A DNA stretch of 64,000 nucleotides, taken from positions 57,296-121,295 of the forward strand of contig JASANE010028061.1 in assembly GCA_030248225.1 (NCBI GenBank). The letters run 5' to 3'. Below, piece by piece: positions 45,797 through 64,000 of this stretch (positions are counted from its first letter, which is position 1; the number at the start of each line of letters is the position of its first letter). The stretch is from Trileptium ribeirensis. Its lineage: Eukaryota; Nematoda; Enoplea; Enoplida; Thoracostomopsidae. The translations under genes and the position numbers were made by a program. The notes below the pieces were generated by a model, which saw nothing but the letters and a program-made list of their open reading frames with translations, was not told the DNA's origin and ran no database searches.

Positions 45797-46958
45797 TTCC
45801 TCAATTAAGCTACTTAGCGCTGAATGGACTTTATGATAATATCCGTGCTCAGATTAAAAAAAAAGTTATCGCCTTTTGTAAACAATATCTGATCCGACAT
45901 ACGATCAACACAAAGTTGAAATATGTCGACCGCCGTGGTCTATGGGAGTGTTATATGTTTCCGGCTTTTTGTAACGTACATATCTCTTCCATCTTGTAGT
46001 CCTTGCGCTACAAATTGCTAATTGCTGGTATTCCTCAATTAAGCTACTTAGCGCTGAATGGACTTTGTGATAATATCCGTGCTCAGATTAAAAAAAAAAG
46101 TTATCGCCTTTTGTAAACAATATCTGATCCGACATACGATCAACACAAAGTTGAAATATGTCGACCGCCGTGGTCTATGGGAGTGTTATATGTTTCCGGC
46201 TTTTTGTAACGTACATATCTCTTCCATGTAGTCCTTGCGCTACAAATTGCTAATTGCTGGTATTCCTCAATTAAGCTACTTAGCGCTGAATGGACTTTGT
46301 GATAATATCCGTGCTCAGATTAAAAAAAAAGTTATCGCCTTTTGTAAACAATATCTGATCCGACATACGATCAACACAAAGTTGAAATATGTCGACCGCC
46401 GTGGTCTATGGGAGTGTTATATGTTTCCGGCTTTTTGTAACGTACATATCTCTTCCATGTAGTCCTTGCGCTACAAATTGCTAATTGCTGGTATTCCTCA
46501 ATTAAGCTACTTAGCGCTGAATGGACTTTGTGATAATATCCGTGCTCAGATTAAAAAAAAAGTTATCGCCTTTTGTAAACAATATCTGATCCGACATACG
46601 ATCAACACAAAGTTGAAATATGTCGACCGCCGTGGTCTATGGGAGTGTTATATGTTTCCGGCTTTTTGTAACGTACATATCTCTTCCATGTAGTCCTTGC
46701 GCTACAAATTGCTAATTGCTGGTATTCCTCAATTAAGCTACTTAGCGCTGAATGGACTTTGTGATAATATCCGTGCTCAGATTAAAAAAAAAGTTATCGC
46801 CTTTTGTAAACAATATCTGATCCGACATACGATCAACACAAAGTTGAAATATGTCGACCGCCGTGGTCTATGGGAGTGTTATATGTTTCCGGCTTTTTGT
46901 AACGTACATATCTCTTCCATCTTGTAGTCCTTGCGCTACAAATTGCTAATTGCTGGTA
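45797..46958 (+). repeat. Nearly homogeneous 231-bp tandem array, five units
   Basis: Units start at 45797, 46031, 46263, 46494 and 46725, with lengths 234, 232, 231, 231 and 234. The first and last units carry CCATCTTGTAGTCC where the inner three have CCATGTAGTCC. Unit 2 has one extra A in its A-run. Unit 1 differs at one base (CTTTATGAT for CTTTGTGAT). Otherwise I see no differences. Because 231 is divisible by three, each unit keeps an open frame of about 70 codons (IPQLSYLALNGL... to FCNVHISS, then TAG); it matches nothing I know. A CTTCAG precedes the first unit, so an exon origin is possible. Confidence 0.9.
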
Positions 46959-47633
46959 TTTTATTGTGCCATTATATAAACATAATTTCTGTTTCTGATT
47001 ATATATCTACTCTTACGTACCGTTTGTTCGTTTGGTCAAATTGGTTTATTTTATAGTTTCGAGTTTGTTTTCAGCGATGTAGTTATTATTTCGTTTTTCT
47101 GAAAAGGTTTTTTCTTCTTTTGTATACTCTGCTTCACTATATATTAATAACACATACCTCTTGCATTAAGTCACTAAACATAATTATAGATAATTCATTT
47201 GAATTGCTGAAAGATCATCGTAGCTGCATATTATTAACCTTTTGCTTTGCTGCGTGACGACTTGGTCAAAACGTACCCAAACACGAAAGTGTTATTAATG
47301 TATTGGGCGTAATGATCAGTGGTTGACTCATTTTGTATATTTGGTTATTGCAAAGTAATATAGTACCAATTTCAACCTTTGCTTCTCATTAGTGCTTTTT
47401 AGCTTCATATTATCCCTATGATAGCTGGCATTATTGTTAAAATGATAATGACGACCCATTTAAGTTGAGAAACACGCTCAGTTTTCGAGATACTTGTCAT
47501 TACAAGACATTTCTAGTGATGAAGAATTGTTTAAGTAAAGTAAGATGACGTAGTTATTCTATGTTATCCTGCTTTATATGTATCACGCGGCAGTATAAGT
47601 ACATTATAGGTATATACCTATACTATACTAAGC
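46959..47633. other. Non-coding stretch
   Basis: AT-rich; nothing was recognised. Confidence 0.45.
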
Positions 47634-50767: not shown

Positions 50768-51352
50768 GGTTCTATTCCATTATCCCCCAACCCGCATTTG
50801 CTTAATAATGGTCAGATGCTGGAAATTTTGGTTTTTTTATGGTCCCCGAGATCTCCCCTGACCATTTCGACCAAAAAATTGAGTTTTTAAAATTTAGATT
50901 TTTTTTGGGTCCCGAGAATCCCCCTAGGGAACCCAAAAATTTTGTCTTAAAAATTGGATTTTCACCCACCATTCGACGCGTCTTGATGGGCTGAATCGAA
51001 TGGTGTTATTTTTAATGGGTTACGGAAACCAGATCCTAAGTTATGACCAAAAATATCGGAGGCTGAGAGGCTCAGCAATTGAACAGTTTTTGGCCATAAC
51101 TTAGGATGCTTTTATCAAATGCCGTTATAAATAACACCATTACACTTAGATCGTCAAGCCGCGTCGAATGATGGGTAAAAATCTAAATTTTAAGAAAAAA
51201 TTTTGGGTTCCCAGGGGACCCGAAAAAATTTTAAAAATTCAATTTTTTGGTCGAAATGATCAGGGGAGGTCTCGACGATCACAAAAATACCAAAATTTCC
51301 AGAATACACCATTTTTAAGCAAATGCGGGTTGGGGGATAATGGAAAAGAACC
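50768..51352. mobile_element. Foldback transposon (GGTTCT ends), copy 2
   Basis: It starts GGTTCTATTCCATTATCCCC and ends GGGGGATAATGGAAAAGAACC split as GGGGGATAATGG and AAAAGAACC. It is flanked by a perfect 8-bp duplication CATTTCAC (50760-50767 and 51353-51360). It is 585 bp, self-complementary, homologous to 29743-30338. The sequence at 56050-56095 looks like an unoccupied copy of its target site. Confidence 0.9.
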
Positions 51353-52003: not shown

Positions 52004-54701
52004 CACATTTATGCCCGAAGTTGGGAATTTCTTCAAAATCAAATATTGTCATTATATAGTTCAGCAAGGCCTAATTAACGTTTTTCATGCATGTATCTAA
52101 CTTATAATCTCCTTATTAGACAGGTACAAGTTGTTCCCAGAATGGAAACAGTGGGCACAAGAGGGTATAGAGTTTTTGTTGCAGAAAAAAACCAACTTGC
52201 TCATTCAAAGATACTGAAAATGAGTAACAAAAAATAGCGGACAATAAAAAGTTAGTTGAAAAGGTTAATATTTCAAATACAAATAACATAGTATGAATAA
52301 TCAAACGATAAAATTAACTTATTCCAGCAAATTTACAAAACAAGAGAATGGTCAACAAACAAATTTTTCGCATTTTAACCATAATCTAGGAATGAAATTC
52401 TTTTGCGCAGTCCTAGTGCAAGTTTAATGCGGCATTTTTCACACATTTCCCTTGCATTTTTCTTACAGACAACACATCGGTTCTACTTTTCAGCCGTAAT
52501 AATATGATGATTCGTACCGTTCAATATGACAGCCACCGGAACCCTTGTTACGAGCGCTTTTGCAAATGAAGGCTGCTTTCCTTGAGCCGTTGATGTTTTG
52601 TGCATTATTAGATAAGACTGTACAATGTTTCTTCGAAATCCAAGATAGTCCATTTTCCCAAATCCCTGTTCGGCGGCAACCTCCCGTTGAATATGCCAGG
52701 CATTCTGGTAACTGAAGTCGACCAGGAAAGCTATGAGAGGCCAATACAATTTTTTGCCCCGAACACCGATTCTGTAGCTCTGGATATTCTGGTCCATTCG
52801 ATCTACGTCTCCCATATACTTATTGTATTGTGATACAATATTAGGCTGTGGTATTTTGGTGCGACCAATACCTTTGACCTAGCGACTAGCTTCACCAATT
52901 GGATTGACTGGATCGACACTGCTCACCAAAGTAACAACAGAATTATCATTCCAAGTAGCCACAACGACATCTTTATTATTTGCAGCACAATCAAACGACC
53001 CTCTGGGTAATTGCTTCATGTTTGTAGGATTTTCAATTGGTGGTTTGTCAACACGATTGACCATGACTGTACCAGTTATCCAAACGCCACGGGTTTTCAG
53101 AGCATCTGCAAGTTTCGTTGAGGTGAAAAACCGGTCAGTGTAGACAAAATATGGGTTTGGCGGTAATTCGGCAAGTAAATCCATGACAACCTCTCCTCCA
53201 ACTCCCAAACCTGGTTTGGGATTTGGCACGCTTTGGTAAGGTTCGAACTGGTAAATATATCCCAGGCGAGAGCAACGAAACCAAAGTTTATAGACAAATC
53301 GAATAGGTTTTCAACGAATGAATTGTTTAGCTCTATGACGTCCGTAGTAAGGTGCCATACTCTCGTCGGCGGATAAGTGCTGCGTGACCAAGAAGTACAT
53401 CAAAAACCGCTCATTGAGCATTGCCATTACCGGCCGCAGTTTGGCATATAGATCAGCCTTGTCCAGTTTATCATTGTCAGCAACGAATCGCATCATATTA
53501 TATAAATCTTCAAACCATAATCTTCAAACCGGTTCCGCCGCATGGCTCCTGCGACCATTTCATTGTAGGTTTCGGTATTTTTTCCCAAAACATACGCCAG
53601 CGCGGCACCTGAACATATCCAGACAACAGCAAAATTGCAAAAAAGCACTTTAGTTCACTAACATATGTAGTAAAATCATGGGTACCTTTTGCTTGAGCGT
53701 GTTTTTGAGTCATCTCAACTATAAAAGAGAGTACTTCGTCGTCAAAAAAGAGTTCAAAAAACTGTGGAGCATTATCAACCGGAATTGTCAATTTTTTCTC
53801 TTCATATAAAAATTCCGGCCGTTGCGGGTGAATATCCTGCTTTTTCCAAGACATACCAGCTGAATTCGTGGCTGTGCGTTTTTTTTTCGACTGATCTGAC
53901 GTTGTTGCATGTCTTCGGGTAATGGAACGTAATCACTATCGTCGTGGTCTTCATCGCTGACGGGGCCAAGAACTACTTTTTGGCCATGTCGAGTGACAGT
54001 TGTTGTTGATGCTGCCTGTAACTGACGACCACTCAAATTGTTAACGTCTCTGCCTTCGTCTTCATTCCCACTGTCTTCCTCAGAATCCAAACCATCTGCT
54101 GGTGGCTCCAAGTAGAGGTACGCTCTGTCCAATTCATCGTCTTCTTCGAGCAGCTGCAGCACTTCTAAGGCGGTGAATGTCCTGAAATGGGTCAATACTG
54201 GCTGTAATTGTGTCCTGAAATGGGACAATACTGGCTAGAGTTGAATAAAGAGTCATAAAACAGCAAAGTTGTAAATAAAAAGACATATAAACATAAACCA
54301 AGTCATTAAAAACTATGCCCCGTTCATGCCCACTGTTCCCAAAATGGGAACAAATACATATTTATGTACGGCTGAACCCGGAATAAAGTATAATAGTAAG
54401 ATAGGTATTGGGCTGATCAAACACACTCTATACACTACATAGACGACCATACTTAAAAAATCGGAAATCAATAAAAACAAGCCTCATTTCTTGCGCGAGT
54501 CCAATTGAATTCTCGACGACACAATTCGGTGAGTGAGTTCGATAGAAATTCCGAATAGTAATAATCCAATTATTGCACAGTATAATACTTATACATAGAT
54601 GAACTGTATAAAATATTTATCATTTAATTCTGAGAAGAATTAAAAAAGTTATAGGTAAAAGTAGTCACGTTCCCAAAATGGGAACAGCGGGCAAATATGG
54701 G
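52004..54701 (-). mobile_element. piggyBac-family transposon with TTAA target duplication
   Basis: TTAA flanks both ends (52000-52003 and 54702-54705). The inverted ends are CACATTTATGCCCG on the left and, read inward from the right, CCCATATTTGCCCG. A subterminal palindrome GTTCCCAAAATGGGAAC occurs at 54669 and 54335, and a degenerate form near 52131. The element is 2.7 kb, close to the usual piggyBac size, and encodes a broken transposase. Its ends look preserved enough that it might still be mobilised in trans; that is inference. Confidence 0.85.
52385..54228 (-). pseudogene. Decayed piggyBac transposase (DDE_Tnp_1_7 type)
   Basis: The N-terminus is acidic (LLEEDDELDRAYLYLEPPAD). The catalytic core is recognisable from ADESMAPYYGR at about 53370 (first Asp), VYTDRFFTS near 53136 (second Asp) and GDVDRMDQN at about 52810 (third Asp). 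The C-terminal Cys-rich domain (RCVVCKKNAREMCEKC) lies at about 52425-52480. Breaks seen: a frameshift near 53855; a frameshift near 53505 caused by a short duplication around ATCTTCAAACC; in-frame stops near 53310 (between KQFIR and KPIRF), near 52879 (after EASR) and near 52482 (before the Cys-rich domain). No intact transposase can be made from this copy. The true start codon is uncertain. Confidence 0.9.
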
Positions 54702-57300: not shown

Positions 57301-57707
57301 ATACTACACTATGAAATATAAATAAATAAAGCACCATACAGAACACATCGTTGAGGTGCCATTATAACCGTTATCTTATGCCTGTGGAAAAAACTTCCTT
57401 GAAACCATTCTGAACTATTTATACGCAGCGATGACTATTGTGAAAGCAATCGTGCAGAAATCACTTAGTAGTAAGCTGACTGAATTTGACAAAAAACTTA
57501 TTTCTTTTCTCGGCTGTTCGTCTTACAGAATCACAAATAATTTTTATCACGTTACAAATCATACAACCGTTGCAGTTCGTCTAATTCACATTGAATCAAT
57601 CCTCAATCAATGCTGCTTTCCAGCACACTCCCAACTGAGTAGTTCGGATCTAGTTAATAAGTCTACCAGTATGATCACGCTTTACTGCAAACCTTTCCTT
57701 TGACATT
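57300..57707 (-). other. Candidate 3' LTR / 3' end of the BEL/Pao element
   Basis: Reading on the - strand, ORF2 ends at 57708. A purine-rich run AAAGGAAAGG follows at about 57695-57704, a possible polypurine tract. TATAAATA occurs at 57416-57423, and a TTTATTTATTTAT poly-T/A stretch near 57320. The other LTR is outside the window, so the boundaries cannot be fixed. Confidence 0.35.
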
Positions 57708-58803
57708 TTATAGGAAATCATTTTCACTTCTGGCAATACCTTTGAGTCCAGTCCACAGTTTCCCGAACCCCAACTGATTCAGATGAAACCTATCGTCATC
57801 AAACAAACTGCAATCAAGAGCTGTCCCATCACCAAACGGAAGTCCAGGACGTGCGAACCAATTCGAACATCGAATTTTAGTTCCTGATAACTGATGCTCG
57901 ATCCATCTAGAGTGTTCCTCCGCTCTTGGCACAATAGGATTAGGGACAGTGCAACTGACCAAAATCCTAGTATCTACGAACCTTTCTGAAGTATATATTA
58001 AAACCGAGGAAATCTGTGCCCATGAGTCTGCCCATTTGCTGCGGCTCGTTTGTGCTTCATTAACACCGCAATTCACAATAACCATAGCAAATTCATTTAA
58101 CCAAATATCCCGTATTTTCAACTCCCTTGCCAAAGTGTCAAAACGACCGCCTGAATAAGAAATTACTGTTCCTCCTTGAAGGGATTTTAAGTGACGGCAC
58201 TGACTATCTGATAACACTAGCAAAGTGTTCCGGTAAGTCGTCGGCAAATCAATGATATTACCCTGCAAGTCCTTGACGCCAAATCTAGGAACCCGATGTC
58301 CATCCAAATGCATTTCAAGAAGTCTGTCCAGTATTTCACCATAAACATTGAAACCGGGAAATTGATTTCGGCGTTCAGCTGTCTTTTTTCTGAGCCCACA
58401 AGACCAGAGAAGCTCTGACCTTGCTTGGCAGTTAAAGAACCGAATTGATCGCGAATCATCGACTGCTTTGATTGTTTCGAGAAAGACTGGTCGAAACGTG
58501 TTGTCGTTATGCTTCATCAAACGCACCATGATGTCTAAGTAAACATCCTTAGCACGAAACAACCACTCGGGAGAAAGTTGGAAACCTTTCTTCTCTAAAT
58601 GTAGCTATTTCTGCAGGATGGTTGTTGCATGATGCATCCGAAAGCATGAGGGTATTGAGTTCGGGCTGATGGCGTTGCAGGAGCATGAAATGCCAATAAG
58701 CCATTTCAATTGATGTCGTCGCCGTATCGCCAAACTGTAGTGATTGAAAGCGATAGAAGCGGGATAACGGGGACTCAGCGTTGATGAAGTGATACCGAGG
58801 CAT
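57708..58803 (-). CDS. BEL/Pao ORF2: NADAR domain plus SGNH hydrolase domain (one frameshift)
   Basis: The ORF lies after integrase, in env position. The first part (58803 to about 58300) reads FINAESPLSRFYRF, TTSIEMAYWHFMLLQ, SPEWLFRAKDVYLDIM and later LLWSCGLRKK with FPGFNVYGEIL. These match in order the landmarks of NADAR/YbiA-like domains (SPLSNFY, TSE-Y-Q--K, the W---K--VM helix, WGCGL, PGxNxxGxIL). The second part (about 58250 to 57715) has LLVLSDSQCRHL, YSGGRFDTL, VNCGVNEAQ and DDRFHLNQLG. These correspond to SGNH/GDSL blocks I, II, III and V, with Ser, Gly, Asn and His retained. A frameshift near 58585 separates the first 80 codons from the rest; otherwise it is open for 284 codons. 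NADAR enzymes of known activity remove ADP-ribose from guanine; SGNH proteins are esterases/lipases. Function here is not known. Confidence 0.8.
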
Positions 58804-58830
58804 ACTGGAAAGTTAAAACAAAAGATAAAG
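58804..58830 (-). promoter_or_regulatory. Splice-acceptor-like sequence before ORF2
   Basis: On the - strand the gap between the integrase stop (58862) and the ORF2 ATG (58803) reads TTTTGTTTTAACTTTCCAG followed by T and ATG. That is a pyrimidine-rich tract ending in CAG one base before the start codon. It suggests that ORF2 may be expressed from a spliced subgenomic RNA. No transcript evidence is available. Confidence 0.45.
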
Positions 58831-58861: not shown

Positions 58862-61339
58862 TCAAAGTTCGACTGATATTTCTGACTGATTATCCGTATC
58901 GCCAATAACCTCTCCCGCCTGCTTAGATTGCTCATCATCTTGTATTTCTATAGGGTTGAGATGGCGAAGTGACCTGTTTATCACTCTACCATTAACCGTT
59001 CTAACGGCAGCTGAACGAATCTGCCCATCCCTACTAGGCAGAAGTTGCACAATTTTAGCTAATTTCCACTGTCCTCTAGGTAATCTATCCTTAACCACCA
59101 CGATAGAGCCTACTGATGGTTCTAATCGGCAAGAACCCCGAGAAGTAAACTGAAAACTGTTACGCAGACTGTTTAGGTACTGATTGCACCAAATGTTCCA
59201 GAAAGAGTTCATCCTAGCCTGCACGCGACGCAACGCACAGACTAATGACTCTTGAGTCACTAGCTTTGCTTTGTAGTCGTGTGGAATATCTGTGAATGAA
59301 ACAGTCCCCATTTTAGAACCCCTGAGGAAATGAGCTGGTGTTATCGGGAAATCTTCGGCTATTGCTCCCAAGTGCGTGATTGGGCGACTGTTAACAACTG
59401 AAGAAACTTCGGCTGCCACAGTCTGAAGCTCAATCATTGATACACATTGCTTCTCCAGCGACGATTTGAGAGCACGGTTGACAACGCCAACCATCCGCTC
59501 GTAAAATCCTCCCATCCATGGAGATAACTCTCTGATGAATTTCCAAACGATCCGTTCCGGAGCGATATAGTCTTTGACTTGTTGAGATTTTGCTACCTGA
59601 CTAAGTATTCTTTCTGCTGCCTTCAGTTGCTTTTCGTTGTCTGAAACGATGATACTTGGTTTGCCATAGATCGACGCGAATCTGCGTAAGCACATCAGAA
59701 ACTGATACGCCGAAAGATCCTCCACCACTTCCAAATGAACTGCTCTAATCGCTGCACATGTGAATAGACTGATCGAAACTTTTTGATACCCTGTTTGTGC
59801 TGCGCAAGATTTGATGAGTAACGGTCTCATGTAGTCAATACCTACACAGTCAAAGGGACGGCTGACATCAACACGGAATTCAGGTAATTGTGGGGCCATA
59901 GGATATGTGAAGGGCCCTCCTTTTGTTAACCAACATTGACGGCACTCTGCAGGCACTGACTTGACTTGATTTCTCCCATTAACAATCCAATACTGTTGCC
60001 TCGTTGCTGCTAGGGTTTGCGATACACCTGCATGATACTATCTGATGTGATAGTTCATTATTACCAACCTTGTAAATCGGCATGTTTTTGGCAACAAAAT
60101 AGGAATTTTAGCAGTTTCATATAATTGACTATGTTGTATTCGAGTCCGACACCGCAATATTCCATTTTCATCAATGAACAAATTCAGTTGACCAACAATT
60201 GGTTGTGGTTTCTCGTTGACCATAGATAATTTGACCGCTTCGAAAGCATCTTCTTGTACTGACTTTTCCCAATATATCTGCGCACCAGCCAATTCTTTTG
60301 ATACAAGACAACCTGATACGGGTGGTGAACTTTGTACTGCATTTTTCAAATTCTGGGTGTATCGAAATACCCAAGCAGTAACCCGGAGAAGTCGATCCAG
60401 TGTTGAAAATCGACTTATCTCTATGACCTTTTCTGTTTTCTGTGGAGGCTGAATTGAAACTGGCAAATATGGTGTACTGCTCTGCTTTACAACTGCCGGT
60501 TGAATGACATTTTTTGGCTATTGATTGACATCTGTAAGCCATTCTGGACCATACCGCCACAAAGAATTACATTGTAATATCTGATACGAGCATCCGCCCG
60601 TGAGCAAATCAGCTGGATTATGTTCCGTTGTGACGTACCGAAAGTTGATGTTGTCATGCGATTGTATTTCTTTCAAACGATTCTGAACGAACCTTGGCTG
60701 CACTGACTTCTTCGTCAGCCAATGCAAAACGCACTGAGAATCGGTCCAAATTATTGTATCTGCCAGGCTCAGGTTTAACTGTGTAGCAACGAAACCAACT
60801 GCTTTAACAGCAACCAAGACGCCCATTAACTCCACTCGAGGTATCGTCGATTCCTTTAAAGGAGCAACCCGAGACTTGGCGAACACTAATTTGGATTCTA
60901 TCTGTAAATCCTGTTGACGAATTAGGTACAGGCATGCACCGAATGCTTTCGCTGAGGCATCGCTGAAACAATGTATGCTGTACTGAGCGTTTTCCTTTGA
61001 GCGAGCACTGAAGTAGCGTCGTTGAAGCGAACATTGTGAAATTTGTTGTAACTCGTCAAGACAACTTTGCCATTCTTCAACAACGTTCGACGGAAGGCTT
61101 GTATCCCATTCGAACCCTTGCTTGCAAAGCTTCTGAATTAAAATTTTCCCAGTGATTGTAATTGGGGCAAAATATCCACACGGATCGTATAATTTGGCAA
61201 GTTGACTGAGTGTTTGTCGCTTGGTGACACCGTTAACCAATTTAGGTATTCCACTACCAGTTGAAACGGTATTTTCATTTGTATTTCACACAAGACCAAG
61301 AACCTTGGTTTCACATTCTTTACCCCGATCACTGTCTGC
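58862..61339 (-). pseudogene. BEL/Pao pol, RNase H and integrase part, with in-frame stops
   Basis: One frame runs from about 61339 to 58862. RNase H shows FSDASAKAFGA, VELMGVLVA, WTDSQCVLHW and the NPAD motif. The integrase zinc-binding region has NYHIR then YHAGV, and CRQCWL. The catalytic core has GIDYMRPL (first Asp), IIVSDNEKQL (second Asp) and GGFYERMVGVV (Glu), followed by a basic DUF5641-type tail (PSVGSIVVVKDRLPRGQWKL). In-frame stops lie at 60038-60040 (inside the zinc-binding region), 60518-60520, and near 61285. The element is therefore not functional as it stands, but the catalytic residues have not drifted. Confidence 0.9.
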
Positions 61340-61780
61340 AAATTGTTGACGTAGTTCTGAATTGTTTGTATACCACTCGCGAAGGTTCATGTTTGCACCA
61401 TTGAACAACCGCTTCAGCGCTGGTTGATTTTCCGGTAATCACGTTGTCAACATATATGTTGCCTTTAATATCGTTTGCAACTGGTAATTTTGACTGACTG
61501 ATATGATGCTGAATCGTTGCTGCTAGCAAAAAAGGACTTGAAACAACACCAAAAGGTGCACGACAGAAACGATACTCGACGATATTTTCTTGGCTAACAG
61601 GGTTTGCTAGGTCTTTGAGCCAAAGAAAACGCGTAACGTCACGAGACTGCTCATGCAAACCGACTTGAAGAAACGCCTTTTCAATGTCGCTCACAATGGC
61701 TATGTCGTTCAGACGAAACCGGAACAGCAATCCACACATATCGTCTAACAATATGGGTCCTTTATAAGTGACTCATTTAG
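61329..61780 (-). pseudogene. BEL/Pao reverse transcriptase, palm part
   Basis: The frame contains IVSDIEKAFLQVGLHEQSRD (first catalytic Asp), FCRAPFGVVSSPFLLAATIQ and NIYVDNVITG at 61443-61454 in the position of the YVDD box. The last Asp of the box reads Asn. It is shifted relative to the protease frame upstream (shift near 61770) and to the RNase H frame downstream (near 61330-61380). Confidence 0.9.
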
Positions 61781-62794
61781 GCTAGGCGATTCTTTGTTAA
61801 GCTTAGATGACGCATCGTACACGATTCTGACTTTGGTCGTGGCCTTATTTGGTGTTAGAACACAATGATGAGGAATGTAATGAACATTCCCCGGTTTACC
61901 ACGCGTGCTTATTTCTTCAATAATTCCCCGGTACATCTGATCCTTCAACGTCTGGTCGTACTTTTGAAGTACTTCTGGCTGCTGACTGATCCGCTTCATC
62001 AGCGATTGAAGCCTTCCCAACGCAAGTCGATAATGATCCGGTATATCGGCAACATCCTTCTTCCATGGCCAATCCACACAATATCGACCATTAATGGTTT
62101 TGACTGAACTGTTAAATGCATTGAGCGCCTCTTCGTCGGCTGTGGTTTCTTTGCATTCCTTGATACCTATGTCGTCGACACTCCAAAACAGTTCTACATA
62201 CAGGGTTGACTCTGGAACGACCGGAGTTTGCGACAAGAAAAGAACTGAGTGGGCGGAGTTCATCTTTGTTTCTGTTTGGGTTTTGCCAGTAACAATATAA
62301 CCTAAACTTGATGGCACCAAAATAACTCCACCTTGAAGACGAACATGTCCCAAACCAATGAAATTGCAGTAATAGTCCAACCCGATTAGAATATCGATTG
62401 TAACTAGTTCTTTCTTAGAACTGATAGGTTCTGCTAGAGGATAACCTGACATTGCCTCACGGATTTCTGAGTTCAGTGGCAGCTTATCGATGTCACTTGA
62501 AATCACCGGTGTGACATTTGCTGTTAAGTGATGCAACTTTCCGTTACCAGCATGGATCTGAATCTGAACTGATTTGTATTTTTTGTGCTTTCGAATTTGC
62601 TCTCCAAAGCCAGCAATTGGCAACGTTTCATCTGGTAACTTGGAACCAGATACTTTCTGACTCAGCTGAGTTGTGATGAAAGTCCGTGTGCTTGCGGTAT
62701 CGAAAAGAAGCCGCGCCTGAATCGGATATCCGTCTCTGCCTTTCAACGTTGCAACAGCTGTTTGCAAAATTGCCGCTTCCCCTTGAGCAATCAA
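61745..62794 (-). CDS. BEL/Pao protease and start of reverse transcriptase
   Basis: This 349-codon open frame carries a retroviral-type aspartic protease of the DUF1758 (Pao) group with active-site text RLLFDTASTRTFITTQLSQK and the later IDILIGLDYY. Downstream is the linker typical of Pao pol and the RT fingers (HYIPHHCVLTPNKATTKVRI, then VYDASSKLN). The frame then ends in LIKDPYC and TAG, while the RT continues in another frame. The usual DSG/DTG triad here reads DTA. It is partial only because of the frameshift. Confidence 0.85.
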   Translation of the reverse strand: MIAQGEAAILQTAVATLKGRDGYPIQARLLFDTASTRTFITTQLSQKVSGSKLPDETLPIAGFGEQIRKHKKYKSVQIQIHAGNGKLHHLTANVTPVISSDIDKLPLNSEIREAMSGYPLAEPISSKKELVTIDILIGLDYYCNFIGLGHVRLQGGVILVPSSLGYIVTGKTQTETKMNSAHSVLFLSQTPVVPESTLYVELFWSVDDIGIKECKETTADEEALNAFNSSVKTINGRYCVDWPWKKDVADIPDHYRLALGRLQSLMKRISQQPEVLQKYDQTLKDQMYRGIIEEISTRGKPGNVHYIPHHCVLTPNKATTKVRIVYDASSKLNKESPSLNESLIKDPYC

Positions 62795-63369: not shown

Positions 63370-64000
63370 AAAATTTGACCGAATGTCTTTTCTGTAAGAC
63401 CGAGAGCAACGAGGCTTCTGATATGCTTTTCACATTCGTCATACGTTTTCTGCAACTGTTGGATATCGTGATTTGCTGTGAGAAGCGCCAGCATTGCTTC
63501 AAGATGAGCAAAAATAGCTAACTGAGGATTACCAAACCTCTCTGTGAGAGCGTCAGCTGCTTCGGCATAGTTGGCACTTGTTAGCCTATACCCGTCTATA
63601 AGGCGTCTGGCATCGCCTTCAAGACAACTCTGAAATACTTGAATTTGTCTCGTTCCGCCAGCTGTTCGTTATCGTGGATGGTTGAGCAAAACCCGTCCCA
63701 AAACTCTGCCCACTGCAACGGATTTCCCTGAAATTTTGTCATCTCTAATTTCGGTAACTTCGCATATACTATCTTCTCACTCAGTGACCACTCTGACGTT
63801 CTGCGAGCTACGGGAGGTACTCTCTGTGCTTGCTGAAGAGCATGGCCTCGGGCACTGACCTTTGCAATTGCTTCTATAATCTCGTCATCAAACGTAGCAG
63901 CTTGCACACTTTCTGCGGTCGCCTCGTCATCATCAGCGATAACAGTCAAAATTCCAACGTTTAGCTTTGATATACGTTCTCGATAATCAGTTAATTTCGT
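63370..64000 (-). pseudogene. BEL/Pao gag (DUF1759), running off the right edge
   Basis: The frame is open from the window edge to 63596 and contains LPKLEMTKFQGNPLQWAEFW, split here as LPKLEMTKFQGN and PLQWAEFWDGF, then ERDKFKYFRVVL, hallmarks of the Pao gag DUF1759 domain. Near 63620 the frame shifts. The homologous continuation (ARRLIDGYRLTSANYAEAAD and RFGNPQLAIFAHLEAM) lies in another - frame down to about 63370. The 5' LTR and gag start are outside the window. Confidence 0.85.

Follow-up and report, generated by a model that had tools for sequence, protein, structure and literature searches.

A candidate accessory protein joining a NADAR-like and an SGNH hydrolase domain in a BEL/Pao retrotransposon lineage of a nematode

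Introduction

What might a retrotransposon gain from a gene that pairs a NADAR-like domain with an SGNH hydrolase? This question is raised by a decayed BEL/Pao element in the nematode Trileptium ribeirensis, which carries such an open reading frame (ORF), here called ORF2, behind its integrase. The locus lies in a 64,000-nucleotide stretch of contig JASANE010028061.1, part of a 687-Mb animal genome assembly; the whole stretch is referred to as the window, and coordinates are window positions. An earlier note, made from the letters of this stretch, had read ORF2 as a NADAR-SGNH fusion and proposed that the NADAR part undoes host ADP-ribosylation of the element's nucleic acid as a counter-defence, with the SGNH part acting on lipids, membranes or an acetylated substrate. 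Below, we compare ORF2 with its relatives in the same genome and weigh this proposal against others.

Results

ORF2 begins 58 bases 3′ of the end of the integrase frame on the minus strand, in the env position, and one frame break divides the window copy into two pieces that sit in different frames. The first, of 84 amino acids (58549..58803), holds the N-terminal part of the NADAR-like domain as aligned in relatives, and the second, of 284 amino acids (57708..58562), holds the C-terminal NADAR-like part and the SGNH hydrolase as recognized from the genome search and relatives. All eight landmarks named in the earlier note are present in the minus-strand sequence: the NADAR-like ones span 58338..58773 (SPLSRFY at 58753-58773, TSIEMAYWHF at 58687-58716, WSCGL at 58392-58406 and FPGFNVYG at 58338-58361), and the SGNH blocks span 57777..58211 (SDSQ at 58200-58211, SGGR at 58143-58154, GVNEA at 58053-58067 and DRFHLN at 57777-57794). 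The highest 19-residue hydropathy in the window pieces is 0.82, and by this measure no transmembrane-like stretch was found in them.

ORF2 is not a one-off. The search of its own genome for further copies, which the earlier note had asked for, gave 137 scored places from 791 first-look candidates, a count that includes the window's own copy and two pieces of one copy (contig C16597); the other scored places are 27-92% identical to window ORF2, and many of the relatives have one open frame of 300-470 amino acids across both domains. We read 60 of the 137 places, 20 from the search and 40 chosen, the latter all without a stop inside the match. Of these 60, 45 passed a full-length filter, for which a reading had to cover most of the 284-amino-acid piece and extend in frame for 60 residues or more ahead of it; in a few copies the scripted choice of Met removed the start of the NADAR-like part. 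After six near-duplicates were dropped (L034, L047, L048, L076, L078 and L085), 39 copies remained in the alignment, in which the close pairs L058/L059 and L046/L052 were kept.

These relatives place ORF2 within the element. At 54 of the 59 fetched loci (window copy excluded), integrase-like sequence precedes ORF2 in the same orientation; once L037 and L042, which overlap, are counted as a single copy, this is 53 of 58 distinct loci. As for the remaining loci, pol joins ORF2 directly in L036, which is without an integrase match, only 327 nt of sequence is available there in L045, and L038, L043 and L051 gave no integrase match in the 1.5-2.9 kb examined. ORF2 and integrase distances co-vary across the 35 of 39 loci used (Mantel r 0.65, with 0 of 2000 permutations as high). 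Repeat pairs resembling long terminal repeats (LTRs) were present at L050 and L063, the two loci examined with the window copy excluded: in L050, identical 204-nt repeats stand 7165 nt apart and enclose gag, protease, reverse transcriptase, Peptidase_A17, the piece labelled RH (below), integrase and ORF2 in order, and in L063 a 196-nt pair of 98.5% identity encloses ORF2, without an integrase match. The placement of a NADAR-like/SGNH fusion in the env position of a BEL/Pao lineage, as first read from the window copy, is borne out by the upstream integrase, the co-variation and the L050 repeats.

The C-terminal half is the more readily recognized of the two. At E ≤ 0.1, PF13472 (GDSL_2) is matched by 28 of the 39 aligned copies, the strongest match being 3.7e-8, and the SGNH active-site residues are kept (S 37/39, G 39/39, N 39/39, D 35/39 and H 38/39). 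Nine other families, among which is the GDSL family PF00657, appear at the same threshold in one or two copies each, so that no unrelated family occurs in more than two of the 39. When compared with solved structures, the ORF2 family profile finds as its best match 4c1b, an 'ORF1-encoded protein' (E 2.4e-7), followed by the GDSL lipolytic protein 7ddy (0.0013). The code 4C1B appears once in the paper on the esterase of ZfL2-1, a zebrafish L2 long interspersed nuclear element (LINE), and this esterase binds charged phospholipids and liposomes (PMC3905857). The SGNH half of ORF2 shares its catalytic residue set with the ZfL2-1 ORF1 esterase, which differs in lying in a LINE ORF1 upstream of pol and with which the available text of PMC3905857 mentions no NADAR.

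For the N-terminal half, the match to NADAR emerges at the level of the family. Pfam NADAR is found at E ≤ 0.1 in 6 of 39 aligned copies (best 1.4e-4), and HHalign was used to compare a profile of this half, restricted to members for which it exceeds 100 residues, with 33 NADARs from bacteria and phages. The match has E 5.5e-7, a probability of 92 and a score of 47, whereas 60 shuffles of the columns scored 16.7 at most. Restricting the comparison to eight phage-type NADARs gives E 6.7e-7 (score 46.9 against a shuffle maximum of 22.8), and adding three NADARs of the same genome to the set gives 5.6e-8. The NADAR homology first proposed from motifs is thus upheld by the family-level match and the six Pfam-positive copies.

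Known NADARs take ADP-ribose off guanine, and their catalytic residues include the Glu of an SxE motif (E43/E88) and an essential Lys (K50/K95) for which Arg is tolerated in vitro (PMC11543638); the last-strand residue follows a rule of Glu, Asp or His (PMC11125620). The NADAR-like landmarks are kept in the ORF2 family, with the SxE Glu in 29 of 36 copies, W in 31 of 39, G and N each in 39 of 39, and a further G in 38 of 39. At the essential-Lys position, seven residues after the SxE Glu, none of the 39 copies has Lys or Arg, and M, V, I, T, L, S, Q or A stands there instead. The last-strand acid position is Cys in 29 of 38 copies and S, T, A or G in the rest; E, D or H occurs in none of the 38. 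Over 132-148 profile columns the family resembles E. coli YbiA and BC4488-type phage NADARs, with W, G, N, G and the SxE Glu in common, but differs from them in the replaced Lys and last-strand Glu. Judged by these residues, the NADAR-like domain is related to NADARs but has a remodelled site, and hydrolase activity is not implied.

The same genome holds a second, near-canonical NADAR expansion, in which 150 places were scored from 2317 first-look candidates; all 150 lie above the Pfam cut-off (best E 2.3e-38), and 3 of 14 control genomes match. The three of its loci that were read, L086 (C12913), L087 (C16926) and L088 (C10291), look like DNA-virus-like elements. L087 carries a Pox_A32-like packaging ATPase (E 7.2e-5), and L086 and L088 have frames that are ATPase-similar by eye only, that of L086 having matched no ATPase family; in both, TATA-binding-protein-like frames adjoin the NADAR (E 1.1e-28 and 2.1e-25). 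The NADARs of these three loci carry the Lys when it is counted seven residues from the Glu, L087 being without the last-strand Glu; alignment columns show Y, H and F at that Lys position, which we read as an alignment shift. Among nematodes, NADAR genes of C. elegans are named in PMC7853720.

Homology in the window copy alone is weak, and shuffle tests on it range from mildly supportive to null. Fragments of window ORF2 fall below the Pfam cut-off both for NADAR (E 0.2 over 88 amino acids and 0.05 over 45), where 14.3 bits compares with a curated PF08719 cut-off of 35.1, and for GDSL_2 (E 0.17-0.25); a scan of the whole ORF2 pieces gave no NADAR, and the N-terminal piece matched no family. 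On the 88-amino-acid piece, FIST_C (0.016) and BP28CT (0.019) outscore NADAR, and among ten unrelated window ORFs used as a control, four match some Pfam family at E < 0.3. In global profile alignment the real score was reached by 11 and 96 of 1000 shuffles for two cuts of the N-terminal piece and by 72 of 1000 for the C-terminal piece. Local hidden Markov model scores against two profiles were equalled in 1102 and 563 of 5000 shuffles for the N-terminal piece and in 10 and 265 of 5000 for the C-terminal piece, and the corresponding HHalign counts were 63 and 34 of 400, and 42 and 11 of 400. Overlap alignment to NADAR with freely overlapping ends gave no signal in the window copy. The motif order is rare in shuffles (15, 33 and 0 of 200000), for patterns that were written after seeing the sequence.

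Database searches with the single-copy ORF2 query were similarly unproductive: none of 326 candidates in the protein database reached E ≤ 1, no relative was found in viral contigs, genome contigs or phages (tblastn), the PDB sequences gave a chance match only, and NCBIfam and PHROGs gave only one PHROG of unknown function (E 0.31). The protein database does contain animal BEL/Pao proteins, the integrase piece of the window element (58862..59956) having 133 relatives there at E ≤ 1e-5. Because ORF2 has no relative in that database though BEL/Pao proteins are present, these searches suggest that it evolves fast or is lineage-bound. The profile check put forward in the earlier note therefore has a divided outcome, in which the single copy stays below cut-off while relatives and the family profile match.

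How ORF2 might be expressed is hinted at by the sequence before it. A splice-acceptor-like stretch (58804..58825, minus strand) has a CAG that ends one base before the ORF2 ATG. The pattern TTTCCAGNATG, taken from this stretch itself, occurs once in the window and also in 9 of 100 shuffles, and a stricter acceptor pattern has no match. The pattern YTTYAG, which was picked with the sequences already in view, occurs in the 60 nt preceding ORF2 in 21 of 45 copies; shuffling gave a mean of 4.8 and a maximum of 13 in 1000 rounds, and a control stretch within integrase had it in 2 of 45. From these motifs, ORF2 is likely to come from a spliced message, in cis or in trans. L050, where ORF2 shares a 2232-amino-acid open frame with the upstream pol, may make it as part of a polyprotein, and because of this single frame the mode of expression may differ between sublineages.

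The element around ORF2 occupies the minus strand from 63949 to 58862 and is a decayed BEL/Pao retrotransposon. It comprises a gag fragment with DUF1759 (63596..63949; PF03564, E 5.3e-10), a pol piece with the DUF1758 protease (61745..62794; PF05585, E 2.7e-11), a reverse transcriptase piece (61329..61751; RVT_1, E 3.5e-7, 30.6 bits), a pol piece with the Pao Peptidase_A17 (60518..61240; PF05380, E 2.4e-52) and the C-terminal part of integrase with DUF5641 (58862..59956; PF18701, E 8.8e-16), and these matches agree with the BEL/Pao identity given in the earlier note. Between Peptidase_A17 and integrase lies a pol piece with the working label RH (60038..60466), which recurs at the corresponding place in relative L050; no convincing Pfam family was found for it, only DUF3626 at E 0.13. 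BEL/Pao membership rests on a Pao-type pol together with a DUF1759 gag, both of which the window element has; it is a decayed copy from a multicopy BEL/Pao lineage. A polypurine-tract-like run (57692..57701) stands right 3′ of the ORF2 stop and a TATAAA (57418..57423) in the presumed 3′ LTR, both on the minus strand and recognized by their letters; the 5′ end of the element is outside the window. Scans of viral contigs with the integrase and Peptidase_A17 pieces gave no match.

Elsewhere in the window, a broken piggyBac-type transposase lies on the minus strand at 52483-54228 (DDE_Tnp_1_7, E 3e-15 and 1.7e-13). Codon usage was rejected as a sign of kinship between ORF2 and pol, as its correlation is 0.62 with pol but 0.59 with piggyBac. 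A tandem array of about four copies of a 231-base unit, identical over most of its length, occupies 46000-47083, and 50768-51352 contains inverted repeats of 70-80 nt that are 80-89% complementary and spaced 330-445 nt apart.

Discussion

Sequence comparison across copies establishes the order of a NADAR-like then an SGNH domain, a history in common with integrase, the place of ORF2 in L050, where pol precedes it and the 3′ repeat follows, and the retention of the SGNH site alongside replacement of two NADAR active-site positions across the aligned copies. We favour, with a confidence somewhat above even, the explanation that ORF2 encodes an accessory protein made of a LINE-ORF1-like esterase and a NADAR-like binding module, probably translated from a spliced mRNA. 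ORF2 would be the third gene, in the env position, of a BEL/Pao lineage, and in many copies its translation would start from a spliced message. By analogy with ZfL2-1, the LINE-ORF1-type SGNH esterase may recruit the RNA-protein complex or particle of the element to membranes, where it would act on acyl chains, and the NADAR-like part may bind ADP-ribose, a nucleotide or nucleic acid, without ADP-ribosyl-guanine hydrolysis. Of the substrates earlier suggested for the SGNH part, lipids and membranes fit the 4c1b match; an acetylated one is taken up below.

A number of observations weigh against this explanation. The family profile misses the solved NADARs 2b3w and 8bau at E ≤ 1, and this, together with the after-the-fact choice of acceptor pattern, led us to lower our confidence slightly. 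The YTTYAG pattern is missing from 24 of 45 copies, the window copy has TTCCAG in its place, and the shared frame of L050 needs no splicing. Single-sequence AlphaFold models, made before the relatives were known, have pLDDT (predicted local distance difference test) values of 31 and 34. In favour of the explanation, the ratio of nonsynonymous to synonymous change (Ka/Ks) is 0.11-0.13 in three diverged pairs, and in the two of them where each half gave a value, each is low; but these three values rest on saturated Ks (1.4-2.0); seven close pairs give 0.41-1.18, and 5 of 15 pairs have no ratio. The locus counts are neither unbiased nor independent, given the stop-free picks and the close pairs. 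Finally, a binding role for the NADAR-like part would follow from lost residues only.

Other explanations share parts of this evidence. The kept SGNH site would equally serve the removal of O-acetyl or acyl groups from glycans or proteins, rather than action on membranes, in the manner of viral haemagglutinin-esterases or depalmitoylases, and deacetylation and depalmitoylation are listed as open options for the LINE esterase (PMC3905857); given that the best solved match is a phospholipid-binding LINE esterase and that the window pieces have no transmembrane-like stretch, we regard this as unlikely. The counter-defence proposal, in which the NADAR part strips ADP-ribose from the element's nucleic acid with help from the SGNH part, has the right fold family, an SxE Glu kept in 29 of 36 copies, the activity of known NADARs on guanine (PMC11543638) and the discussion of viral NADARs as counter-measures (PMC9503650) in its favour, but it runs into the replacement of the essential Lys in every aligned copy and a last-strand position that is never acidic and mostly Cys. 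It is possible only given another catalytic route in the NADAR-like domain, and we consider it quite unlikely. That ORF2 replaces env, its lipase activity serving cell-to-cell passage or egress, would suit its position and an acceptor-like motif such as spliced env genes have, and such a role is formally possible for the enzymatic third ORFs of bdelloid elements (PMC5408684). The same source takes missing transmembrane domains as a sign against env, however, and the window pieces lack a stretch resembling the retroviral env anchor, which makes this role improbable.

Two further explanations would dissolve the finding itself. Chance resemblance of both domain names could appeal to single-copy matches below cut-off, to unrelated families that score better on one piece, to weak or null shuffles and to the missed solved NADARs; it is very hard to reconcile with the PF13472 match of 3.7e-8, the NADAR match of 1.4e-4, the profile match of 5.5e-7 and the 4c1b match of 2.4e-7. 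The alternative that the earlier note had itself raised, a host gene fragment or other element beside a broken BEL/Pao copy, agrees with the broken state of the window copy and its 5′ end outside the window, but is contradicted by integrase upstream at 54 of 59 loci, by the co-variation and by the repeat pairs in L050 and L063, and is the least probable of all.

Beyond the favoured reading of an esterase with a NADAR-like binding module, we entertain as a speculation, and as less likely than not, that the BEL/Pao lineage swapped env for a spliced two-domain protein, in which a NADAR fold that lost its Lys and had its last-strand acid changed to Cys, but kept the W/G/N/G frame, became a novel enzyme or reader working with a membrane esterase, alongside DNA-virus-like elements with near-canonical NADARs. 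If true, this would mean that several kinds of genome parasite engage host NAD/ADP-ribose chemistry in one host.

Parts of this arrangement are already known, namely NADAR domains in retroelements (PMC12477816) and a GDSL third ORF in LTR elements (PMC5408684). Bdelloid Vesta LTR retrotransposons have a GDSL esterase ORF3 after pol with intact catalytic residues, like ORF2; its partner within one ORF3 can be a DEDDy exonuclease, and the available text of PMC5408684 mentions no NADAR-like part and does not assign Vesta to BEL/Pao. NADAR domains are carried by retrotransposons, as in ORF2, in the Pol of an Ectocarpus Gypsy element and in ORF1 of a Tx1 LINE of the oyster Crassostrea gigas (PMC12477816). 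There they stand at the Pol N-terminus or in the LINE ORF1, with no SGNH partner mentioned in the available text, whereas the NADAR-like domain of ORF2 lies in an ORF after integrase and has an altered active site. In the open-access literature searched, which leaves most subscription journals outside, we found no NADAR-SGNH pairing, BEL/Pao placement or NADAR site altered in this way.

It is seldom clear what the accessory genes of LTR retrotransposons do, and ORF2 is a two-domain, multicopy case with a long history with its element. It unites in one protein two leads, the esterases of LINE ORF1 and LTR ORF3 proteins and the NADAR domains of retroelements. With its SGNH site retained and its NADAR site consistently altered, ORF2 lends itself to clear biochemical tests of the domain roles, and ADP-ribose chemistry as a battleground between elements and their animal hosts is open to such tests. 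ORF2 may help such elements to cope with their host cell.
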